DNA of 64,000 nt, taken from assembly GCF_008370495.1 (NCBI RefSeq), contig NZ_VTUX01000004.1, positions 62,001 to 126,000 of the forward strand, in the 5' to 3' direction. Every line of letters starts with the position of its first letter. Positions within the stretch are counted from its first letter, which is position 1. The stretch comes from Pseudohalioglobus sediminis. Lineage in GTDB: Bacteria > Pseudomonadota > Gammaproteobacteria > Pseudomonadales > Halieaceae. Positions 10,597-21,605 of the stretch are shown here, piece by piece. The notes beneath the pieces are model-generated. The model saw only the letters and a list, made by a program, of their open reading frames with translations. It did no database searches and had not been told where the DNA came from. The position numbers were made by a program, and so were the translations under genes.

Positions 10597-11418
10597 TCAG
10601 GTGGCGGGGAGATCCCCGAACAGGCCGTAGTGCACACAACCCTCGATGACACCGCTGGTGTAATTCCCGTTGAGCCCGTGAAAATCGCCCCTGGCGAAAT
10701 AGGCCCTCAGTCCGGGATTGTGTTCCAGCTCGCGGCGCACACCCTCGCGCAACTGGGCATCGGCATTGCGTACCAGCACGCCCGAGAAGTGCGCTGTGAG
10801 CGCATCGAGGTCATTCCCGCTGTCGCCACAAAACACCACATCCTCAAGCGCTATACCTGCTTGCCCGGCGAGGTATTCGAGAGCCGTGCGCTTGGTTGCG
10901 CTGCGGGGCAGGATATCCAGCAGGCCCAGCCCGCTGGCCGAATCAAAACTGTATATCACGGTCTCGTCGAAACAAGCTGCGAGCCGTTGCCTGATGGCGT
11001 TGAGCAGTGCCTCCCGCCCGTCGTGGGCCAGGTGATAACTCTGCTTGAACGCGGACTGGTGTTGCGCCGCCTGGCGTTCAAGGCCGGGTACAACTGACAG
11101 GGCGCCCGCCACGCCCGCCGCATCCCAGCGGGGGCTCTTGCTTTGCAGTGCCTGCTCCCAGCCGTGGTCCCGGCGCCAGCTGTCGCCAACACGATGCCGT
11201 ATGGTCGTGCCCACGTCACTGCACAGCACATCGGGGTAGCGGATACCGTACTCCGAGATCGCCTGTTCGGTCAGTTCCAGGTTGCGTCCAGTCACGTACA
11301 CTAGGCAGACATCTGTCTCTTCCACCAGGCGGTTGAAAAGGGGGATCGCCTGTGGATCCGCCTGCCAGCTTCCGTTAGGCAGCAAGGTGCGATCGAGATC
11401 GGTGGCCAGAATGCGCAT
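10597..11418 (-). CDS. spp: Sucrose-6-phosphate phosphatase (HAD superfamily)
   Basis: 273 residues, Cof/SPP-type HAD phosphatase. Motif I is TDLDRTLL near the N terminus (both catalytic Asp present), motif II-like VYVTGRN, and motif IV CGDSGNDLDAL, so it looks active. It removes phosphate from sucrose 6-phosphate made by the synthase four genes upstream. It is last in the operon sps-fruK-ams-spp, 14 bp after amylosucrase. The operon context supports this over other HAD substrates such as glucosyl- or mannosyl-phosphoglycerate. Confidence 0.85.
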   Translation of the reverse strand: MRILATDLDRTLLPNGSWQADPQAIPLFNRLVEETDVCLVYVTGRNLELTEQAISEYGIRYPDVLCSDVGTTIRHRVGDSWRRDHGWEQALQSKSPRWDAAGVAGALSVVPGLERQAAQHQSAFKQSYHLAHDGREALLNAIRQRLAACFDETVIYSFDSASGLGLLDILPRSATKRTALEYLAGQAGIALEDVVFCGDSGNDLDALTAHFSGVLVRNADAQLREGVRRELEHNPGLRAYFARGDFHGLNGNYTSGVIEGCVHYGLFGDLPAT

Positions 11419-11432
11419 CGCTGCTATCTGCT

Positions 11433-13391
11433 TCAGACGCTGGCTACCAGCCAGTAAAAACTGTGCGGTGGTATTACCAGCTGTTGGTTGAACAGTGCGG
11501 GTGACTCGCCGCTGGCGGCGTCTTTCAGGGGTGCCATGGAGAAGCGCTCCCGGTTGCCGAGCATCGCGAGATCGAACTGCTGGGGGTGGTCGTCGAAGTT
11601 TGCCACGACCAGCACGGATTCTTCCGGCGACTCGAAGCTGGTGCGGATAAATACGAACAGATGTTCATTGCCCACATCCAGCAGTTCCCGGTTGTTGAAA
11701 TCGGAAAAAGCCGGCAGCGTCTTGCGTACCGCTATCAGGTGACGGATGCCGTCGAAGATGCGTTGTTCAACCGAACCGCGCTGGCGACGCTTCCCGGTTT
11801 TGTCCCAGTCGTAAACAGGCCGGTGTATCCAGCGGCTGTCGCGGCTGCGCGCGACATCGCCGACGTAGTCGTAATTGTTCAACGTGCCCAGTTCATCGCC
11901 GTAGTACAGCAGCGGAATTCCGCCGAAAGACATGATCAGGCTATGTAACAGCAGTATCTGGTTGATGCTGCCCTGGATCACCGCTTCGTCATCTGCGGCC
12001 AGGGCTGATTCCAGCCCTACCAGAGATGCCAGGGTGCCGGAAATCCGTACATCGCCGGTTTTGTTATTGCGGCCGAAAGGTTGCCCGCGGGCCGGCGAGT
12101 CATCGTACTCCCCGGTGTAGTAATCGACCAGGAAGCGGCGGTGGGCCCGGGGATCGTAGCCCACGGCGGCGATGTCAACGTCATCGAAGCCGAGGCCGAT
12201 ATCGTCGTGGCAGCGGATATAGTTGAGCCAGGTGGCCCGGTCGAGTTTCTCCGGCAGGCTGCGGATGCCCTGGTTCAGCAGGCGTGTATTCTTGGTAGCG
12301 ATAGCGTCCCAGAGCAAGGCCATAAAAGTGGCGTTGTAGGCGATTTCACATTCCTTGGCTATCACCGCGTCCTCGCCAAAGTACTTGGTGATCTCCACCG
12401 GCGCCACAATCGCCTCGGCGATAAACAGTACGCCCGGTGCGGTCACCTGGCAGCAGTCCTTGAGCAGTTGCAACAGCAGGTGTGCTTCCTGCTCGTTCTG
12501 GCAGGTGGTGCCGATCTTCTTCCACAGGAAGGCGACGGCGTCCAGGCGCAACACGTCAGCGCCCTGGTTGGCCCAGAACAGTATGATATCCAGCATCTCT
12601 ATGAATACGGCGGGATTGCTGTAATTCAGGTCCCACTGGTAGTCATTGAATACGGTCATCACCCACTTGCCCATCGTCTCGTCGTAGGTGAAATTGCCCG
12701 GGGCGTTCTCCGGGAAAATCTCCGGCATGGTCTCCTCGAACATATCGGGGACTTCGCGATTGTCGAAGACGTAATAGTAATCCTGGTAAGCGGTGTCCCC
12801 GGCGCGCGCCTTTTGCGCCCAGGCGTGTTCGTTGGAGGTGTGATTGAGCACCACATCCAGGGTCAGCAGCAGTTCGCGCTTGCGCATGTGCCCGGCCAAT
12901 GCCCGCAAGTCCGCCAGGGTGCCCGCGCGATCATCGATATCGCGAAAGTTGTTCACTGCGTAGCCGCCATCACTGGCACCGCGCGGGCACTCCATGATGG
13001 GCAAAATGTGCACGAGGTTGACGCCCAGCTCCTGCAGGTAGGTCATTTTTTCGCGCAGGCCCTGCAGGTCCCCGGCGAAACCGTCCAGGTACAGTGCCAT
13101 GCCCACCCATTGCTGGCTCAGGAACCAGTTGTGGTCCGCCTCGCGAGCCTGGTCGATTTGCTTCAGTTCCTGGTCGCGCGCGATGTACTGCCGGGCCATG
13201 GTGTTGACCAGTTCAACCAGTTGCTCTTCCACATCTTCGCGGTCGCCATAGAGGCGATTGAACAAGTTATAGATGGCATAGAAGTTGGCGCCAAGGCGAG
13301 TGTAGAAGTGCCGCAGGTCATGTTGCTGCAGCGACGCTTCCATCTGGTCAAGCGTGCGGTTAAGCAGTGAATGTGATTGCTGTTCGTACAT
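11433..13391 (-). CDS. ams: Amylosucrase (GH13)
   Basis: 652 residues from the ATG at 13391, one base after the fructokinase stop; the frame is open further upstream, but that part lies inside fruK. It has the amylosucrase-type N-terminal helical domain and a GH13 barrel: DVVLNHTSNEHAW, DVLRLDAVAFLW with nucleophile D284, FIAEAIVAP with acid/base E326, and YIRCHDDIG with the transition-state Asp. D284 and E326 sit within two residues of the catalytic pair in the Neisseria enzyme. The enzyme transfers glucose from sucrose to alpha-1,4-glucan and releases fructose, which the neighbouring fructokinase can recover. Confidence 0.95.
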   Translation of the reverse strand: MYEQQSHSLLNRTLDQMEASLQQHDLRHFYTRLGANFYAIYNLFNRLYGDREDVEEQLVELVNTMARQYIARDQELKQIDQAREADHNWFLSQQWVGMALYLDGFAGDLQGLREKMTYLQELGVNLVHILPIMECPRGASDGGYAVNNFRDIDDRAGTLADLRALAGHMRKRELLLTLDVVLNHTSNEHAWAQKARAGDTAYQDYYYVFDNREVPDMFEETMPEIFPENAPGNFTYDETMGKWVMTVFNDYQWDLNYSNPAVFIEMLDIILFWANQGADVLRLDAVAFLWKKIGTTCQNEQEAHLLLQLLKDCCQVTAPGVLFIAEAIVAPVEITKYFGEDAVIAKECEIAYNATFMALLWDAIATKNTRLLNQGIRSLPEKLDRATWLNYIRCHDDIGLGFDDVDIAAVGYDPRAHRRFLVDYYTGEYDDSPARGQPFGRNNKTGDVRISGTLASLVGLESALAADDEAVIQGSINQILLLHSLIMSFGGIPLLYYGDELGTLNNYDYVGDVARSRDSRWIHRPVYDWDKTGKRRQRGSVEQRIFDGIRHLIAVRKTLPAFSDFNNRELLDVGNEHLFVFIRTSFESPEESVLVVANFDDHPQQFDLAMLGNRERFSMAPLKDAASGESPALFNQQLVIPPHSFYWLVASV

Positions 13392-13392
13392 C

Positions 13393-14292
13393 TCAGTTGG
13401 CCTCGCCCCATTCGCGCAGCAATTGCAGGTAGGTGTCGCAGTTGGCCAGGGTGGCGCCGCGATTGGCCACGATTTTGCCGGCGAACTGCTGTGCCCGTGC
13501 CAGCGTGGCCTGCATGTCCCAGCCGGCCACCAGGCCCGCCAGCATGACTGCAGCAAAGGCGTCCCCGGCACCCACTGTATCCACTACCTCGATCCCGGGG
13601 CTGCAGGGGGCGTGCAGATGGCTGCCGTCGGCGCTCAACAGTTCGGCCCCGTCGGCGCCGCGGGTGACAATAAGTCCATGTAGATTGAAGCGTTGCAGGC
13701 ATAACCGCGCAGCGTTCGCAGTTGATTCGCCCTGGAGTGCAGACAGTTCATCCGTATTGAGTTTGACCCAGTGAGCACCCTGCAACAGTGACTCCAGTTG
13801 CTCCGGCTGCCACCAGGGCGGGCGCAGGTTGACGTCGACGAATACCAGCGCGGGCCGGCTGGCCCTCAGCGCTGCCAATGCGTGTGCTGACTGCGGCGAG
13901 CGCGCTGCCAGGCTACCGTGGTAGAGCACATCGCAGGGAGCCCCCGGCGCCGGTTCGAGTGCGTCCCAGGCACAGTTCTCATCAATCTGGTAGTGGGGCT
14001 CTCCGGCGACGATATCTACCGTGACGCGTCCGGTGGGGCGTTGCGGATCGTGTTGCACCGCAGTGGTGTCCATACCCCAGCGGGACATGGTGTGCAGCAC
14101 CTTCTCTCCCTCGGGATCGGCGCCAATGCGACTGACCAGAAGCGGTGCAAAGCCCAGGCCCTGCAGGTGCCAGGCGACATTGAACGGAGCCCCGCCCATT
14201 ACCGTTTCCCCGCCGGGGAAATGGTCAAACAGCACTTCGCCAAAGACGCAGACGCTTTTCTCCCGGGGCGTGTTCATGGCGTTATCGGGCAT
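13393..14292 (-). CDS. fruK: Fructokinase (PfkB family)
   Basis: 299 residues, normal for PfkB sugar kinases. Visible motifs are GGAPFNVAWHL in the N-terminal substrate region, VDVNLRPPWW in the middle and the anion-hole signature DTVGAGDAFAAVML with the catalytic Asp near the C terminus. It phosphorylates fructose released by amylosucrase. It begins 12 bp after the sucrose-phosphate synthase stop and ends one base before the amylosucrase start. An ATG five codons downstream (MNTPREK) is an alternative start. Confidence 0.92.
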   Translation of the reverse strand: MPDNAMNTPREKSVCVFGEVLFDHFPGGETVMGGAPFNVAWHLQGLGFAPLLVSRIGADPEGEKVLHTMSRWGMDTTAVQHDPQRPTGRVTVDIVAGEPHYQIDENCAWDALEPAPGAPCDVLYHGSLAARSPQSAHALAALRASRPALVFVDVNLRPPWWQPEQLESLLQGAHWVKLNTDELSALQGESTANAARLCLQRFNLHGLIVTRGADGAELLSADGSHLHAPCSPGIEVVDTVGAGDAFAAVMLAGLVAGWDMQATLARAQQFAGKIVANRGATLANCDTYLQLLREWGEAN

Positions 14293-14304
14293 CCTCTGTG
14301 GTGA

Positions 14305-16479
14305 TCAATCATCTGCGGGCACTGCGCAGGCGCCAAAAAAATCATAGTAGTCCAGGGCTTCCAGTATGCCGGCGCCATGGGTACGGCCGGCAAAGTAAAT
14401 ATTGTCCTCTTCCGGCAGCAGCGACAGTTCCTCCTGGTGCCGGTTTGCCACCACCACGGCCAGGGTATTGCCGCGCATCATGTCTTCGTCTGCGCCCGAG
14501 CCACCTGCCACCAGTATATTGCCGAGAGGAATATCCAGGCGCTGGGACACATAGCGCAACGCCAGGCCCTTGGAGGCCCGGAATGGCAGGATGTCAAAAA
14601 ACTGGCCGAATGAGAGTGTTGTGCTGGCGGTGATGTCAGCCTGGCGCAACAGGGTGTTGATGTCCTCTACCGGCGGCGCCTGCGCCGGGTCGTAATAGTA
14701 GGAAACCTTGAAGGCGGTCTGCTCGCGTTTATCCTGCAGGCGCAGCCCGGGCACGGTGGCCAGCGTTTGCCGGATGCGACGCGGCGACCACTGGTAATCG
14801 ATGTGGTCAGCCCAGAAATCATCCTCCAGCAGGCTTTGGCCGTAGTGTATGCGTGTACCAAGGCTGCTTATAAGTACGTCGGGATACGGAATGCCGTGTT
14901 TGCGCATCAACGCCAGCGCGGTATCGAGACGGCGTCCGGTAGCGATGGCGAAAGATACGCTTTTGCGGTGCTCGCGCAGTGTATCGATGAACTGTTGCAG
15001 GGATTGCTCATCGCCGATCAGGTTCTGGTCCAGGTCGCTGACGATCATCCGGTCACGGTAGCGCAGTGAGCGCGGCAGCGACTGCTCGCGTGGCAGCGGC
15101 GTGTATTTGCCGGACAGTTGCGCCACCCGGTCTAGGTAGGCGGTCGCGTGCGCATCCCATGAATAGTGTTCGCGTACACCGCTCATGCCGTTTCTCGAAG
15201 CCTGCTCCCAGGCCGCGTTATCGGTCAGCAGGCCGAGCAGGGCCCCGGTTATCTGCTCTTTGTCCAGCGGGTCCACCAGTTCGCCACAGCGGCAGTTGCG
15301 GATGATGTCGACCGGGCCGCCGTTCTCTGTTGCCACCACTGGCAGGCCACTGGCTGCGGCCTCCAGCAGGGTCAGGCCGAACGGTTCCGTCAGGGCGGGG
15401 TTGATAAAGACCCCCCTGCCGCTGGCAACCATGCGGTAGATATCGGGCACTTCGTCGGCTCGGTGCTGCTTCGGCACCGCCACTCTCCCGTACAGGTCAT
15501 AGGTGTCGATAAACAGCAGGATGTTGGTGAGCACGTTTTGTGCACCATCGTCCATATCGCGGATATCCTCGCGATTGCCGGCCACGATCAGCAGGTTTGC
15601 CGCCGCCTGTAACTGGTCGGACTCGCCGTAGGCCTCAATTAACGTGAGGATGTTCTTGCGCTCGTCCGGACGGGACAGTGCCAGGATCAGCGGCTTGTCG
15701 GGGTAGCTGAGGAACTTTTCAATCTGCTGCCGGAACGGGACCTGCTCGCCGTCCTGATAGGGACGGAACTGGTCGAGGTCGGTGCCCGGGGGAATAACCG
15801 CCATGCGCCCCGGATCATAGTAGTTGTACAGGGCATATTGCTGTTCGATCTCATTGTGGGTGCTGGTCACGACCAGATCCGCATTGGCCAGTACATCTTC
15901 CTCGGCATCGATGCGCCGCTCGATGTTGTAGGTGCTTTCGATCTCTTCACGCGAGAAGCCACGGGCCAGCAGGCGCTTGCGTTTGTCTCGGCCAAGGGAG
16001 TGGCCGGTGTGAATCAGGGGTATGCCCAGCAGGCTGGACAGGCGCACGCCGACGTAGCCGGCGTCGGCATAGTGACTGTGGATCAGGCTTGGCTGACGGG
16101 TCTGGTCGGCGATAAAGGCGGCGAGGTTGTCGGTGAAGCTATCCAGGTGCTCCCACAGTTGTTCCTTGGCAATGTATTCTTCGGGGCCGCAATCGACGCG
16201 CACGATGCGTGCGCCGTTGCCCAGCGTTTCTTCACGTTCGGCGTAGTCGCTACTGACTGTGGGGTCCACGATTCGACGCGTTACCAGGTCCACGCGCTCG
16301 ACGCTGTCCTGTGCGGCCAGCGCGCGCGCCAGATCAACCACGTACTTGGTCTGGCCGCCGGTGTCGGCATCCCGCCCGAGTTCGAGGTCACCGCCGCGGA
16401 TCAGTCCGTGTACGCTGATCAGGCAGATATAGAGCCTGTTTGAGTGTTGCTTGCCCTTTGAAATACGCCTCTTCCCCAA
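14305..16479 (-). CDS. sps: Sucrose-phosphate synthase with C-terminal HAD-like domain
   Basis: About 720 residues. The N-terminal 450 residues are a GT4 glycosyltransferase: ISVHGLIRG, ELGRDADTGGQTKYV, HSHYADAGYVG, TGHSLGRDKR, then the nucleotide-sugar site ALTEPFGLTLLEAAASG. It joins UDP- or ADP-glucose to fructose 6-phosphate. The C-terminal 240 residues resemble sucrose phosphatase but are degenerate: motif I reads SDLDQNLI (Thr to Asn) and motif IV GGSGADEDMM (Asp to Gly, Asn to Ala), so a separate SPP is needed. The listed start is a TTG at 16479 without a ribosome-binding site. An ATT at 16464 preceded by AAGAGG gives a protein beginning SKGKQHS and is a strong alternative. First gene of the sucrose operon. 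Confidence 0.93.
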   Translation of the reverse strand: MGKRRISKGKQHSNRLYICLISVHGLIRGGDLELGRDADTGGQTKYVVDLARALAAQDSVERVDLVTRRIVDPTVSSDYAEREETLGNGARIVRVDCGPEEYIAKEQLWEHLDSFTDNLAAFIADQTRQPSLIHSHYADAGYVGVRLSSLLGIPLIHTGHSLGRDKRKRLLARGFSREEIESTYNIERRIDAEEDVLANADLVVTSTHNEIEQQYALYNYYDPGRMAVIPPGTDLDQFRPYQDGEQVPFRQQIEKFLSYPDKPLILALSRPDERKNILTLIEAYGESDQLQAAANLLIVAGNREDIRDMDDGAQNVLTNILLFIDTYDLYGRVAVPKQHRADEVPDIYRMVASGRGVFINPALTEPFGLTLLEAAASGLPVVATENGGPVDIIRNCRCGELVDPLDKEQITGALLGLLTDNAAWEQASRNGMSGVREHYSWDAHATAYLDRVAQLSGKYTPLPREQSLPRSLRYRDRMIVSDLDQNLIGDEQSLQQFIDTLREHRKSVSFAIATGRRLDTALALMRKHGIPYPDVLISSLGTRIHYGQSLLEDDFWADHIDYQWSPRRIRQTLATVPGLRLQDKREQTAFKVSYYYDPAQAPPVEDINTLLRQADITASTTLSFGQFFDILPFRASKGLALRYVSQRLDIPLGNILVAGGSGADEDMMRGNTLAVVVANRHQEELSLLPEEDNIYFAGRTHGAGILEALDYYDFFGACAVPADD

Positions 16480-17296: not shown

Positions 17297-17731
17297 GTTT
17301 TTTCCTGTTACTGGCGGCGACATGGGGTGTTTACCGTGCGCCGGACTGAATTTATGAGTCCCTCTTGCGAGGAACGCTTATTGGAAACAGTTATTTATGC
17401 ACTACAGGAAGAGGGTCAGGAAAGACTGAACGTCAAGCGGAACACAAACAGGGTATCTACCAAGACCCTCCAGTATAAAGCACGCAGGCATCAAGTCAAT
17501 CGACGGCACTTTGCGGACGCAGCGGAGCTTCAGCCCGCGCGACGGCGCTGGCACTCCCATTCGGCGTGGGCAACTGACCAGCGGGAGCAGCGCCACCGGT
17601 GCACCTGGCGCCTGTCGCGGTAACACATTGGCCCTTTATGGCGTGATTTTCTGCCGCAATACGCCATTGCGGTGACCGCCTCCAGTGGTGACAATCGTAT
17701 CCTGGCCATAACAGCTTGCGAGGCGCTGACG
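17297..17731 (+). other. Intergenic region between slyD and the receiver-GNAT gene
   Basis: 435 bp between divergent genes. The left part is less GC-rich than its surroundings. An open frame at 17327-17623 has no ribosome-binding site, family resemblance or typical codon use, so I do not call it. TATAAA at 17472 could belong to a promoter for either side. No RNA gene or repeat is recognisable. Confidence 0.4.
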
Positions 17732-18658
17732 ATGGGCGTGAACAACGTGGTACATGTGATCGATCCTGACCAGGCCATGAGCCGGCCGCTGGCAGCCTTG
17801 CTGGGTGCATACGGTATCAGTGTCAAGCGACATGCGGATGAGGCCGGGTTTCGGGTCGCGGCCAGCGAGCCAGGCTTCGGCGGCGGCTGCCTGATGCTGG
17901 AACTGGATGTCACCAGCGACGACCACCTGCACCGCCTGCGTACCCTGAGACAGGATTTCCCCGAACTGCCGATTATCGTGATGGGGGAGAGTACGCGCGA
18001 CGGTCTGGGCGCGCGGGCACGGGGCGCGGGCGCCACCGACCTGATCGAGCGTCCACTGGCGGCCGCCTACCTGTTCAGCCGCCTGGCGCAATTGTTACCG
18101 GGTTCCGGCAATCTGCCAGCGGTAGAGCCGTCGGTGATGGAGGTCGATGGCGCGGCGCCGGTCACGCTGCGCATGGCGCACCCCGAAGATGCGGACATGG
18201 AGCAGGCCTTCATGACCTCGCTATCAGAGAAGTCGCGTTATATGCGGTTTTTTTCCGGCCTGAGCAAACTCCCGGAGCACGTACTCAAGGAATTCACCAC
18301 GCCGCGCTATCCGATCAGCTACGCCGTGATCGCCACGGTGCCCGATGTTGATGGCGACAAGCAAATCGGGGTCGCCCGCTGGGCACCCACGGGTACCGAG
18401 GGGGTGGCCGAGTTTGCGGTGGTGGTGGCGGACGAATACCAGGGCCGGGGCATCGCCAGCCGCTTGATGCGTATCCTGATTACGGCCGCCGCGGTAGGCG
18501 GCCTGGAACGCCTGGAAGGGCTCATCCTCACCGAGAACGCGCCCATGCTGGCGATGGTGAAAAAAATGGGCTTCACGCGCTGCCCCAACCACGATGCCGG
18601 CCCCGGCGTCGCCCTTTACGTCAAGCACCTGCGCAATACCGGGGATCTCTCCGCCTGA
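17732..18658 (+). CDS. Degenerate CheY-like receiver fused to Pat-like GNAT acetyltransferase
   Basis: 308 residues from the ATG at 17732 with GAGG about nine bases upstream. Residues 1-125 follow the FixJ-type receiver: VIDPD with acidic D11 and D13, then GCLMLELDV where the phospho-acceptor Asp is replaced by E57, and LIERPLA where the conserved Lys is R107. It probably cannot be phosphorylated normally. Residues 145-305 form a GNAT domain of the Pat/YfiQ protein-acetyltransferase type: LSEKSRYMRFFSGLSKL and the acetyl-CoA loop QGRGIAS at 237-243, then a C-terminal NAPMLAMVKKMGF. It may acetylate proteins, with the receiver acting as a regulatory or docking module. A Sir2 deacylase lies 2 kb downstream. 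Confidence 0.88.
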   Translation: MGVNNVVHVIDPDQAMSRPLAALLGAYGISVKRHADEAGFRVAASEPGFGGGCLMLELDVTSDDHLHRLRTLRQDFPELPIIVMGESTRDGLGARARGAGATDLIERPLAAAYLFSRLAQLLPGSGNLPAVEPSVMEVDGAAPVTLRMAHPEDADMEQAFMTSLSEKSRYMRFFSGLSKLPEHVLKEFTTPRYPISYAVIATVPDVDGDKQIGVARWAPTGTEGVAEFAVVVADEYQGRGIASRLMRILITAAAVGGLERLEGLILTENAPMLAMVKKMGFTRCPNHDAGPGVALYVKHLRNTGDLSA

Positions 18659-18699: not shown

Positions 18700-20655
18700 T
18701 CAGGGCGCCGAATTCTGGGTCTTGTAAAGCCGCCGGGCCGCTGCCCAGATGTCGTCCACCATGTCCCAACCGGCGGCATTGGTCTCTTCGTAGTGGCCTT
18801 CTGGTTCGCCCAGCTCGCGCCCCAGGCCCTGTCCGTAGCGGCAGATGGTAGCCACCGCCTCGGCGTCGTCACCCAGGGCAGTCAGTGCGGCCGGGTCATC
18901 GGTGATGGCCTGGCAGGTGGCCCCGGAGATGTATTCCGGTGATTCGATCACCCCGCGGGCGGCCAGGTCGGCGCAGCTGGCACCCCCGGTCAGTACCAGG
19001 TCAAGGCAGCGCAGGCGGTAATCCGCCACCGGCACGTAGTAGCCTATCTGGTCCGTGCCCAGACCCACGGTGAGAGTCAGCGATTCATCGGCCAGGGACA
19101 ACAGGTGGCCCGGCAGTACGTAGTCCGCACCCACGGCATGGAGGTGGGGCTCTCGGTAGTATTTCTCCGCCGGTGCGCTGGCGAAGTCGTCGGGCAGGCC
19201 GTGTACCAGTTCCGGCGGCAACTCGCCCGGCATCCACAGAATGCCGACATCACCGAAATCGAGGTGGGCCAGCTGGCTGCGAATGACATCCCCGGCGGAG
19301 ATCTGGCTGCCCAGCACCGGCGTGATGAAGGGGTCGTCCTCCAGTGCGCCACCGCTATCGCTACAGTTATCTGCCGAGAGTGGCTGGTCAGTGCAATTGT
19401 AGAGGGGTATGTCCTGCCAGCCGATATCCCCGTCCGCGATCAACAGCCTGAAGCCGATATTGGTGAGCCGGGTGAAGAAAGGTTCAATATGCACCCGCAG
19501 CTGCGACACCTCTACCGCTTGTGCCGCGTCCAGTAGCCCGCTTACCGCGTTGGCGAGCTCGGTACCGATCGATTCAGTCTTGGCGAAACTGCGACACAGG
19601 TAGGTGGGCCGGTCGTCGCATTCGGTGAGCGGCGCCGCGCCCTCGGGCACGCTGCGGCCATCGCCAACCGGGTGTTCGTCAGTGACCACCCAGGTGGGAG
19701 AGGCGCCCGGGCCGACCTGGTTGCCCAGGGGGCCATTGAAGAACAGGGTTTCACCGCCGCGCTGCGCCGCGATGCGCTCGCGCAGTACGCCCGGGAAGTC
19801 AGCGGTCAGGTAGCGGCCCTCCGCGGTACAGTCACCGCCCTCCCAGCCCTTCGCGGCGCAGGCCTGCTCCAGGCCCGCGGCATCCGCCGGCGGATGCCAG
19901 CCCAGGGTGGATTCCGGGTGACTGGTCCATTGCACCAGGGTGGCAATGGCCTCGCCGCTCTCGAGAGCGTCCACCGCGATCACGTTGAGGCGGGGGTCGC
20001 GGATAATCGGGTCGCGGACGTCATCGACGCCGTAGCCGTGCTCACCGCTTGCGGTGCGCAGTTGCGCCGCCTGCATACTCGCTACCGCATCCTCGGCGGC
20101 GAAAGCGATCTGGTCAGCGAGCAGGGAGAACCAGTCATCGTTGATGCTGAACGCGGTATCGGGGCCGTGGTGGTTGTGCGTGGCGGAAACCAGCACCGGC
20201 GCCTCCTGCCACTCAGGCGGTATCCTGCTGCGCACCCGGTTGACGATCTCGCTGATGTCCGGCGAGAAAAAGGAGTAGGTATCCGCCATGATCATGATGA
20301 CGCGTTCGCCGTCACGGGACAGGGCCAGCGCCGTGGCGCGGATATCGTCATGCACCCAGGCGGAATCGGAGCGCCCGTTGCCCACATCGACCCGGCCCTG
20401 GTCCCAGGCCTCGATGAAAACGCCGGGGTTGTCGGGGTCCAGGGCCTCGCGGGCGGGCCAGCCGGGGGCGTCGGAGAGATAGGCGCGGCCCCCGGCGACG
20501 GTGGGTAGCAGGCTGTAACTGGCCGCTCCGGCCAGCAGGCTGGGTGCCGGCTCAGGCGGGGGCAGCGGCTGGCGGTCGGAACTGTCGCTGCAGCCAGCCA
20601 GGGCCAGTGCGAAAATTGCCAGGGCAAACGGTTTCCAGGGGCGAACGATCCTCAT
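18700..20655 (-). CDS. Neutral-ceramidase-like lipoprotein hydrolase
   Basis: 651 residues from the ATG at 20655, preceded by AAGGAG. Lipoprotein signal with lipobox LAGC, so anchored in the envelope. A linker rich in Pro leads to a large domain containing SATHNHHGPDT, WVHDDIRATALAL and VQWTSHPESTLGWHPP. These resemble the zinc-binding and active-site stretches of neutral/alkaline ceramidase-like amidases (His-rich NHxHHGPD). The exact substrate, whether ceramide, other N-acyl lipid or something else, is not known. It is convergent with the receiver-GNAT gene and divergent from the Sir2 gene. Confidence 0.72.
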   Translation of the reverse strand: MRIVRPWKPFALAIFALALAGCSDSSDRQPLPPPEPAPSLLAGAASYSLLPTVAGGRAYLSDAPGWPAREALDPDNPGVFIEAWDQGRVDVGNGRSDSAWVHDDIRATALALSRDGERVIMIMADTYSFFSPDISEIVNRVRSRIPPEWQEAPVLVSATHNHHGPDTAFSINDDWFSLLADQIAFAAEDAVASMQAAQLRTASGEHGYGVDDVRDPIIRDPRLNVIAVDALESGEAIATLVQWTSHPESTLGWHPPADAAGLEQACAAKGWEGGDCTAEGRYLTADFPGVLRERIAAQRGGETLFFNGPLGNQVGPGASPTWVVTDEHPVGDGRSVPEGAAPLTECDDRPTYLCRSFAKTESIGTELANAVSGLLDAAQAVEVSQLRVHIEPFFTRLTNIGFRLLIADGDIGWQDIPLYNCTDQPLSADNCSDSGGALEDDPFITPVLGSQISAGDVIRSQLAHLDFGDVGILWMPGELPPELVHGLPDDFASAPAEKYYREPHLHAVGADYVLPGHLLSLADESLTLTVGLGTDQIGYYVPVADYRLRCLDLVLTGGASCADLAARGVIESPEYISGATCQAITDDPAALTALGDDAEAVATICRYGQGLGRELGEPEGHYEETNAAGWDMVDDIWAAARRLYKTQNSAP

Positions 20656-20786
20656 GGTGCACAACTCCTTGTGTTTATTATTGTCAGCGCCGCCGCCAGC
20701 GGCCCGTGGCGCCTGATCAGTGTAGTGAGGGCAGGTAAAAGCGTCAAAGCTCATCTCCCGCGGCACAGTGACCGTATACTGAGGGT

Positions 20787-21605
20787 ATGAATACCGGGCA
20801 CGATAATCTGCACGCATTGCGATCCTTCCTCGATGACTGCGAACGCATCGTGGTGCTTACCGGTGCCGGTATCAGTCTGGCGGGCGGGATACCGACCTAT
20901 CGCGACCAGGACGGGGTCTGGCGCCACAGCGAGCCGATCAAGCACCAGGAGTTCCTGCGCGAGCCGCGTCGCCGCCAGCGTTACTGGGCCCGGTCGATGC
21001 GTGGCTGGCCCGCGGTGCGCGACGCGACACCAACCGCGGCGCACAGTGCCCTGGCGCAACTTGAGCGCTCGGGCCGCGTGGATCTACTGATCACCCAGAA
21101 CGTGGATCGCCTGCACCAGCGTGCCGGCAGTGAGCGGGTGGTGGACCTGCACGGACGCCTTGACCGGGTGCAGTGCCTTGACTGCGGTGCCATGACCAGC
21201 CGCGATGCGGTGCAGGAGCAGTTGCTGCATCACAACGGGCAACTGCCCGTTGCGGCGTCGGCACGGCCCGATGGCGACGCCGACCTGCCGGAGCACCTGG
21301 AGCGTGACTTCGTGGTGCCGCTTTGCCCGCAGTGTGCGGGAACGGTGATGCCCGATGTCGTGTTCTTTGGCGGCACGGTGCCCAGGCCGCGAGTGGAATA
21401 CTGCATGCAGGCGCTGGAGCGGGCAGACGGCTTGCTGGTGGTAGGCAGCTCATTGCAGGTGTTCTCCGGGTTTCGCTTTTGTCGACGCGCCAGCGAGTCA
21501 GGCGTGCCTATCGCCATCCTCAATCCCGGCAAGACACGAGCCGATGCCCTGGCCGGGCTGAAACTGGATGCAGATTGCCAGTCGCTGTTGCAGGCGGTGG
21601 TGTAG
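20787..21605 (+). CDS. Sir2-family NAD-dependent protein deacylase
   Basis: 272 residues. NAD-binding motif LTGAGISLAGGIPTYRD near residue 25, TQNVD and the catalytic His in VDLHGRL, and a zinc ribbon of CLDC plus CPQC about 60 residues later. The module carries a short extra stretch between the Cys pairs, as in SIRT4-like and class II sirtuins. GSSLQVFSGF and NPGKT belong to the nucleotide site. It removes acyl groups from lysines using NAD. The GNAT acetyltransferase 2 kb upstream makes a functional pairing possible. A strong hairpin follows the gene. Confidence 0.94.
   Translation: MNTGHDNLHALRSFLDDCERIVVLTGAGISLAGGIPTYRDQDGVWRHSEPIKHQEFLREPRRRQRYWARSMRGWPAVRDATPTAAHSALAQLERSGRVDLLITQNVDRLHQRAGSERVVDLHGRLDRVQCLDCGAMTSRDAVQEQLLHHNGQLPVAASARPDGDADLPEHLERDFVVPLCPQCAGTVMPDVVFFGGTVPRPRVEYCMQALERADGLLVVGSSLQVFSGFRFCRRASESGVPIAILNPGKTRADALAGLKLDADCQSLLQAVV

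Follow-up and report, generated by a model that had tools for sequence, protein, structure and literature searches.

What does a receiver domain of the FixJ kind do at the head of an acetyltransferase, once most of the residues of its phosphorylation pocket have been replaced? The question is raised by a single gene within a 64,000-nucleotide stretch of the Pseudohalioglobus sediminis genome (contig NZ_VTUX01000004.1), hereafter the window. Bacterial acetyltransferases are sorted into types I to V by domain layout, none of which includes a receiver (PMC8556138, in the available text of which the word 'receiver' occurs 0 times), and a preliminary description of this DNA was right to call a regulator of the receiver type unusual. 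It had also named cyclic-nucleotide- and amino-acid-binding domains as the known means of control. Both are known, but the list is incomplete, as acyl-CoA-synthetase-like and NADP-binding Rossmann domains also occur (PMC8556138), and PixB of Myxococcus xanthus likewise joins a GNAT to a signalling domain, in that case to two c-di-GMP-binding PilZ domains (PMC8316039). Our preferred reading, to which we assign a probability of roughly 0.45, is that the window protein may be a lysine acetyltransferase built on the type III plan, with a domain derived from a receiver that serves docking or regulation independently of phosphate. The features on which the analysis draws are as follows.

17732..18658, + strand: whole gene, pseudo-receiver plus GNAT, 308 amino acids plus stop (open reading frame and orthologues)
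17747..18094, + strand: predicted pseudo-receiver domain, residues 6-121, (beta-alpha)5 (profiles, AlphaFold2, structural alignment)
17762..17767, + strand: D11-P12, the receiver acid pair with the second acid changed to Pro (alignment to FixJ controls)
17900..17902, + strand: E57, at the phospho-acceptor position (Asp in all 31 FixJ controls; alignment)
17984..17986, + strand: G85, at the switch Thr/Ser position (alignment to FixJ controls)
18050..18052, + strand: R107, at the conserved Lys position (alignment to FixJ controls)
18080..18082, + strand: R117 in alpha5, the same in all nine fused proteins (conservation comparison)
18095..18160, + strand: linker, residues 122-143 (AlphaFold2; weak model confidence at 126-130)
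18161..18631, + strand: Pat-type GNAT domain, residues 144-300 (Pfam, NCBIfam, sequence and fold matches)
18410..18412, + strand: E227, candidate catalytic Glu, aligned by hand count with residue 235 of the Rv0998 chain
18440..18457, + strand: QGRGIA, putative acetyl-CoA-binding loop (R/Q-x-x-G-x-G/A; sequence, with the motif as given in the available text of PMC8556138)

The ATG at 17732 is preceded by GAGG 8 bases upstream; a longer GTG start exists at 17672, and conservation begins only at about residue 7. Judged from the sequences compared, the fusion of receiver and GNAT is real, conserved and rare, and no accident of assembly, since seven other family genomes encode full-length relatives as single open reading frames, as does L023, a proteobacterial metagenome-assembled genome that supplies a ninth fused protein. 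At E <= 1e-30 a profile of the family matched 29 of 140 family genomes, 21 of them in the GNAT part only and eight across both domains (three of the eight genomes of the window's genus, one in genus g2 and four in g6); the full-length fusion is thus rare within the family (8/140). A scan of genome contigs gave, among the best 80 of 404 loci, three fused single frames (L021, L022 and L023), the first two of which duplicate two of the eight family proteins. Wider sampling covered 369 genomes of the class (E <= 1e-15), 390 of the order and 398 of the phylum (both at E <= 1e-45). Among the matches listed, the window gene was the sole one to span both domains, a result that speaks for rarity rather than absence given strict cut-offs and at most 5-6 candidates scored per genome. 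Spread by plasmids was considered and rejected, for none of 87 matching plasmid records covered 80% of the protein.

The C-terminal domain is recognised by Pfam Acetyltransf_3, _1 and _7, all above cut-off, as is a GNAT family match over residues 146-282, and its predicted structure combines a GNAT fold with the R/Q-x-x-G-x-G/A loop. The nearest solved relatives are Pat enzymes, in agreement with the Pat-like character first proposed for this domain. By sequence, the family profile found 9it0 (E 2e-25) and 4nxy (E 7.8e-19) in the PDB; by fold, the closest structure is SlPat in complex with acetyl-CoA synthetase (4u5y; Z 25.1, rmsd 1.8, 164 residues aligned), with further matches to 4nxy (Z 24.2) and to PatZ (9it0; Z 20.5, rmsd 17.3 over 287 residues), and Foldseek ranks 1-9 are all Pat enzymes. 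Rv0998 (4avb; Z 19.9, rmsd 2.9, 164 aligned) is level with non-Pat GNATs, which score Z 19.3 or less. The Pat model itself gave 62 bits against a cut-off of 460, a low score being expected when a whole-protein model meets a protein of another layout. Residue 235 of Rv0998, with which E227 aligns, is presumably the candidate general base of that enzyme. In MSMEG_5458 the named candidate base is E234 (PMC8556138). Nearness to Pat enzymes and possession of this candidate catalytic Glu together point to a GNAT of Pat type, and the window protein most likely acts as an enzyme of that type, acetylating protein lysines with acetyl-CoA.

The PKTRSGK motif is a target of Pat, and the organism's own genome encodes two Acs-like enzymes that carry it, the first scoring above the cut-off for AcsA and the second under it. 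AMP-forming acyl-CoA synthetases, including these two, are likely candidate substrates, while the substrates of a GNAT are not readable from sequence with certainty. The same difficulty of prediction (also PMC8316039), together with the many GNATs acting on small molecules or N-termini that fill the fold lists beneath the Pat rows, leaves some room for a domain that acetylates a small molecule or an N-terminus rather than protein lysines. We consider this improbable: the top matches in both sequence and fold are Pat-type lysine acetyltransferases, and the fused GNATs share a region of an unrooted tree with Pat GNATs, albeit a tree that holds no small-molecule GNATs for contrast.

The N-terminal domain was described at first as a FixJ-like receiver, and profile searches and AlphaFold2 models bear this out. 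The NCBIfam FixJ model matches residues 1-119 (E 7e-11, 42 bits, cut-off 255), and a five-row family profile found FixJ (1d5w, E 1.1e-19) in the PDB. Pfam Response_reg scored 23.3 bits, below its cut-off of 30.2, which makes the window protein the sole exception among 26 receiver matches in its own genome, the other 25 lying above that cut-off. A full-length model built on a 32-row alignment (mean pLDDT 86.9, pTM 0.67) contains a complete (beta-alpha)5 receiver at residues 6-121; linker pLDDT is under 50 and, with a pTM of 0.67, the arrangement of the two domains is uncertain. The receiver was also modelled separately, because most of the fold matches to the full-length model were GNATs. Alone (8 rows; pLDDT 82.9, pTM 0.76) it again folded as (beta-alpha)5, with 2qxy_B as best structural match (Z 17.7, rmsd 1.8, 117 aligned), so that modelling of residues 1-125, proposed earlier as the check on this domain, returned a receiver fold both times. 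Going by entry titles and recall, we take all of the 50 structures matched by the lone model to be receivers or receiver-bearing proteins, except 8oyp_B. In the models the whole domain can thus be aligned to solved receivers. The protein falls outside the FixJ subfamily proper, for a GNAT stands in place of the C-terminal LuxR-type DNA-binding domain (Pfam scan to E 1).

In true receivers the second acid of the acid pair binds Mg. The pocket of the window protein reads D11, P12, E57, G85 and R107: four of the five active-site residues are altered (D12 to P, D57 to E, T85 to G, K107 to R), and D11 alone is kept. Among 31 FixJ receivers the phospho-site Asp, the second acid Asp and the Lys are present in every case, the switch residue is Thr in 27 and Ser in four, and the first acid is Asp in 27 and Glu in four. 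The replacements previously noted at positions 57 and 107 are confirmed by this alignment, which adds two further losses, P12 (Asp in 31/31 controls) and G85 (Thr or Ser in the controls). The set of D, D, D, T/S and K expected of a phosphorylatable response regulator is therefore incomplete, and the domain is a pseudo-receiver for which the usual phosphorylation is probably not possible. Across the nine fused proteins (the window's included) the second acid is absent throughout (Pro in seven, Ala in one, Gly in one), position 57 is Glu in four, Asp in two, Thr in two and Ala in one, and the Lys position holds Arg in five and Lys in four; the two proteins with Asp at position 57 still have no second acid. 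Three solo pseudo-receivers found at related loci all have Pro at the second acid and Glu at the phospho-site. Among Asp-less receivers in general, Glu is the commonest replacement (26%) and the second residue is acidic in only 29% (PMC4395418), percentages that place the pocket of the fused protein among those of the usual Asp-less kind.

The preliminary description had suggested that the Glu mimics the phosphorylated state, in which case the receiver, and through it the acetyltransferase, would be locked permanently active. Glu does occupy the site in the window protein, in its two fused relatives of the same genus, in the fused protein of genome G008 and in all three solo pseudo-receivers, and a change of Asp to Glu activates some receivers, but by itself is often insufficient to do so (PMC4395418). 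Five of the nine fused proteins have Asp, Thr or Ala at the site, the second pocket acid is missing from all nine, and neither the switch Thr nor the switch loops, which would have to relay the signal, are conserved. The suggestion was consequently not upheld: the variable site 57 and the missing second acid rule out phosphomimicry as a mechanism of the whole family, and we regard it as quite unlikely for the window protein.

If the phosphate switch is gone, the parts of the receiver that remain conserved become informative. Conservation per structural element was compared between the nine fused rows and random draws of nine from the 31 FixJ rows, controls which had been selected by FixJ-model score, a choice that favours canonical residues and inflates pocket conservation. 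The largest losses (fused vs FixJ) fell on the beta3-alpha3 loop (0.38 vs 0.81), the beta4-alpha4 loop (0.29 vs 0.78) and alpha4 (0.44 vs 0.70), and smaller ones on beta1-alpha1 (0.56 vs 0.73), beta4 (0.51 vs 0.76), alpha3 (0.48 vs 0.64) and alpha2 (0.50 vs 0.61), with beta3, beta5 and beta1 also among the elements of smaller loss. No loss was seen in alpha1 (0.60 vs 0.57), beta2 (0.56 vs 0.43) or alpha5 (0.60 vs 0.62). Setting alpha1, beta2 and alpha5 against the two loops and alpha4 gave a Mann-Whitney p of 6.5e-5 with nine rows, 1.4e-4 when six less related fused rows are included and 3.2e-4 with alpha3 added, values that are descriptive given that the groups were chosen after the table had been seen. 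As other receiver elements are also less conserved than in FixJ, the contrast between the kept side and the switch parts is a matter of degree. What can be said with more safety is that the alpha1-beta2-alpha5 side has remained as conserved as in FixJ even though the fused set is the more diverse (mean identity 0.34 vs 0.48). Gains in conservation over FixJ were seen at residues 24, 27, 29 and 31, the biggest of all being at R117, followed by I29 and V31.

Such a pattern is difficult to reconcile with a receiver that is a functionless vestige, or a mere aid to solubility or folding. The receiver does evolve faster than the GNAT (pN 0.23-0.32 vs 0.11-0.22 in four pairs), yet its amino-acid changes are fewer than its silent changes (pS 0.70-0.89, near saturation), as are those of the GNAT (pS 0.72-0.78, silent sites likewise near saturation), which suggests purifying selection on both domains. 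The receiver has been kept in nine fused proteins and has gained new invariant positions such as R117. It is probably not vestigial, and we hold the contrary to be highly improbable.

With the phosphate switch apparently gone and the alpha1-beta2-alpha5 side kept, docking is preferred as the mode of control and is our first choice, ligand binding coming next. In the NarL/FixJ family the dimer face is alpha1-alpha5, while most solved pseudo-receiver dimers, four named exceptions aside, use part of alpha4-beta5-alpha5 (PMC12632262); the poorly conserved alpha4 therefore speaks against a simple alpha1-alpha5 homodimer. In other pseudo-receivers the alpha1-beta2 side is said to bind ligands, so this pattern does not separate docking from ligand binding. 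A pseudo-receiver that binds a small ligand (a nucleotide, an acyl-CoA or a metabolite) and thereby exerts allosteric control over the GNAT, in the manner of cAMP, ACT and NADP domains, would have precedent in the type III enzymes with ligand-binding N-terminal domains (PMC8556138) and in several pseudo-receivers that bind ligands, through alpha1-beta2-alpha2 and through alpha2, beta3-alpha3 and alpha3. The gains at residues 24, 27, 29 and 31 would suit it too. We nevertheless think it somewhat unlikely, as the beta3-alpha3 loop and alpha3, both frequent ligand sites, are poorly conserved (0.38 and 0.48), and, short of a systematic motif search, no ligand motif was recognised.

Gene neighbourhoods suggest where the receiver came from. 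At locus L131 (genome G008) a FixL-like kinase, a FixJ-type regulator, a solo pseudo-receiver and the fused protein follow one another. To one side of this set lie the genes for acetate kinase and PEP synthase, to the other those of an alternate F1F0 ATPase. ATPase subunit c, acetate kinase and PEP synthase score above their model cut-offs, and FixL, FixJ and ATPase beta below. At L027 a kinase and a FixJ-like regulator precede separate pseudo-receiver and GNAT genes that overlap at TGATG, and L023 has, in this order, part of a kinase gene at the edge of the contig, a gene for a FixJ-like regulator, the fusion and a pseudo-receiver that stands alone. At L025 the genes for a hybrid kinase, a single intact receiver and a GNAT adjoin one another. 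The kinases of L027, L023 and L025 were named from likeness alone. In a receiver tree (from which L206, a copy of the L004 FixJ, was omitted, and which does not include the L023 FixJ) the nine fused and three solo pseudo-receivers form one branch apart from FixJ, with support 98/96. In a GNAT tree made by a quick method, the eight family fused GNATs group together (97, starred), the fused and L027 GNATs form one group (support 88, not starred), and this group is nested in a starred group with short GNATs, mostly from Woeseiaceae; the tree holds 69 of 144 domains (nine fused, 12 short, and 48 of 117 Pat rows, by frame length), six fragments having been dropped. From the gene orders of L131, L027 and L023 and from the trees, with the direction of change inferred, the fusion probably arose from coupled neighbour genes in a kinase-regulator operon, and the window copy now stands alone.

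Solo pseudo-receivers with Pro at the second acid and Glu at the phospho-site adjoin intact FixJ-type regulators at L004:2556-2954, L023:2535-2930 and L027:5968-6354. At L226:6476-7639 (genome G519) a FixJ-type regulator precedes a single receiver, partly degenerate but with the phospho-site Asp retained. The cluster of ATPase, pseudo-receiver, FixJ, FixL, acetate kinase and PEP synthase genes at L131:1-16001 resembles an energy-stress island.

One further role for the domain would be that of an address tag which pairs through the kept alpha1-alpha5 side with the receivers of true response regulators and so brings the acetyltransferase to two-component proteins. Seven of the eight family genomes with the fusion encode a full-length FixJ-type regulator, with scores of 182-234 bits that all fall short of the 255-bit cut-off. 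In the window's own genome no close one was found, the best full-length match reaching 78 bits, so no partner is obvious there. We regard the address tag as a long shot, and put the adjoining FixJ as its ancestral partner equally low. Were it true, it would couple acetyl-CoA level to phosphorelay output via acetylated regulators or kinases.

Under the docking reading that we prefer, an ancestral receiver gene would have lain beside a translationally coupled GNAT gene within a FixL/FixJ-like operon, and the two would then have fused. The parts of the phosphate-dependent switch would have drifted while the alpha1-beta2-alpha5 side was retained, and this side may now dock a protein, be it a second copy in a homodimer, a partner protein or the protein's own GNAT domain. 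Docking would gate or target acetylation, likely that of AMP-forming acyl-CoA synthetases. Folds, lost residues, the conservation pattern and neighbourhoods are read from sequences and models; from these we infer activity, substrate, the direction of history and docking.

Compared with known systems, both parts of the protein are of known kinds, and what is new is a receiver-derived domain on a Pat-type GNAT. The models give the window protein the type III layout of an N-terminal domain followed by a C-terminal GNAT. Like the type III enzymes (MtPat Rv0998, MsPat MSMEG_5458, ACT-GNAT and the NADP-Rossmann-GNAT MxKat), it would join a small N-terminal domain to a Pat-type GNAT whose candidate catalytic Glu aligns with theirs, but a FixJ-type pseudo-receiver replaces the cNMP, ACT or Rossmann domain. 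PatZ/YfiQ and SlPatA (types I and II) have the nearest GNAT by sequence (9it0) and fold (4u5y); unlike them, the window protein has no acyl-CoA-synthetase-like domain, and its genome also encodes a separate Pat-like frame of 935 aa. With the Asp-less and pseudo-receivers ChxR, FrzS, RitR and CmrT it has in common a receiver fold and lost phosphorylation residues, and like Asp-less receivers it has Glu at the Asp site and keeps the first acid but not the second (PMC4395418). It differs from those four in its acetyltransferase output, no such output being named in the main text available of PMC12632262 and PMC4395418, where the words 'acetyltransferase' and 'GNAT' are absent. Its receiver is nearest to FixJ, and three relatives adjoin FixJ-type regulators and kinase sequence, whereas the window protein itself has neither the LuxR DNA-binding domain, nor the phosphorylation site, nor FixL/FixJ neighbours in the window. 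An atypical Desulfovibrio regulator with Gly at the phospho-site has acetyl-CoA synthetase genes among its targets, one of which carries an acetyltransferase domain (PMC3333781). No receiver-GNAT protein appears in the portions available of PMC7159879 and PMC12471899, nor was a description of such an acetyltransferase found in the open-licence literature, mostly titles and the starts of abstracts; surveys of output domains may list one.

The fusion would add a domain derived from two-component systems to the known regulators of protein acetylation, and an enzymatic output with a simple assay could render control by a pseudo-receiver measurable. The relatives form a natural series for that purpose, from unfused coupled genes to fused proteins with Asp, Glu, Thr or Ala at the old phospho-site.

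Elsewhere in the window, a gene for a SIR2 family NAD-dependent deacetylase (20787-21605, + strand; NF003738, 374 bits, above cut-off) lies 2.1 kb downstream of the acetyltransferase, and each of the three fusion-bearing members of the genus has it downstream of the fusion and in like orientation. It was considered as a functional partner and rejected: the gene is present in eight of eight genus genomes and adjoins the same sucrose cluster in genome G001 (L180), where the fusion was not found, so that simple synteny explains its proximity at least as well. A 705-aa open reading frame at 18700-20817 (- strand), for which NCBIfam gave no match at 1e-8, resembles, by eye, an enzyme of the neutral ceramidase type. 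The genes at 10597-16479 (- strand) look, by eye, like a cluster for sucrose-phosphate synthesis and fructokinase.
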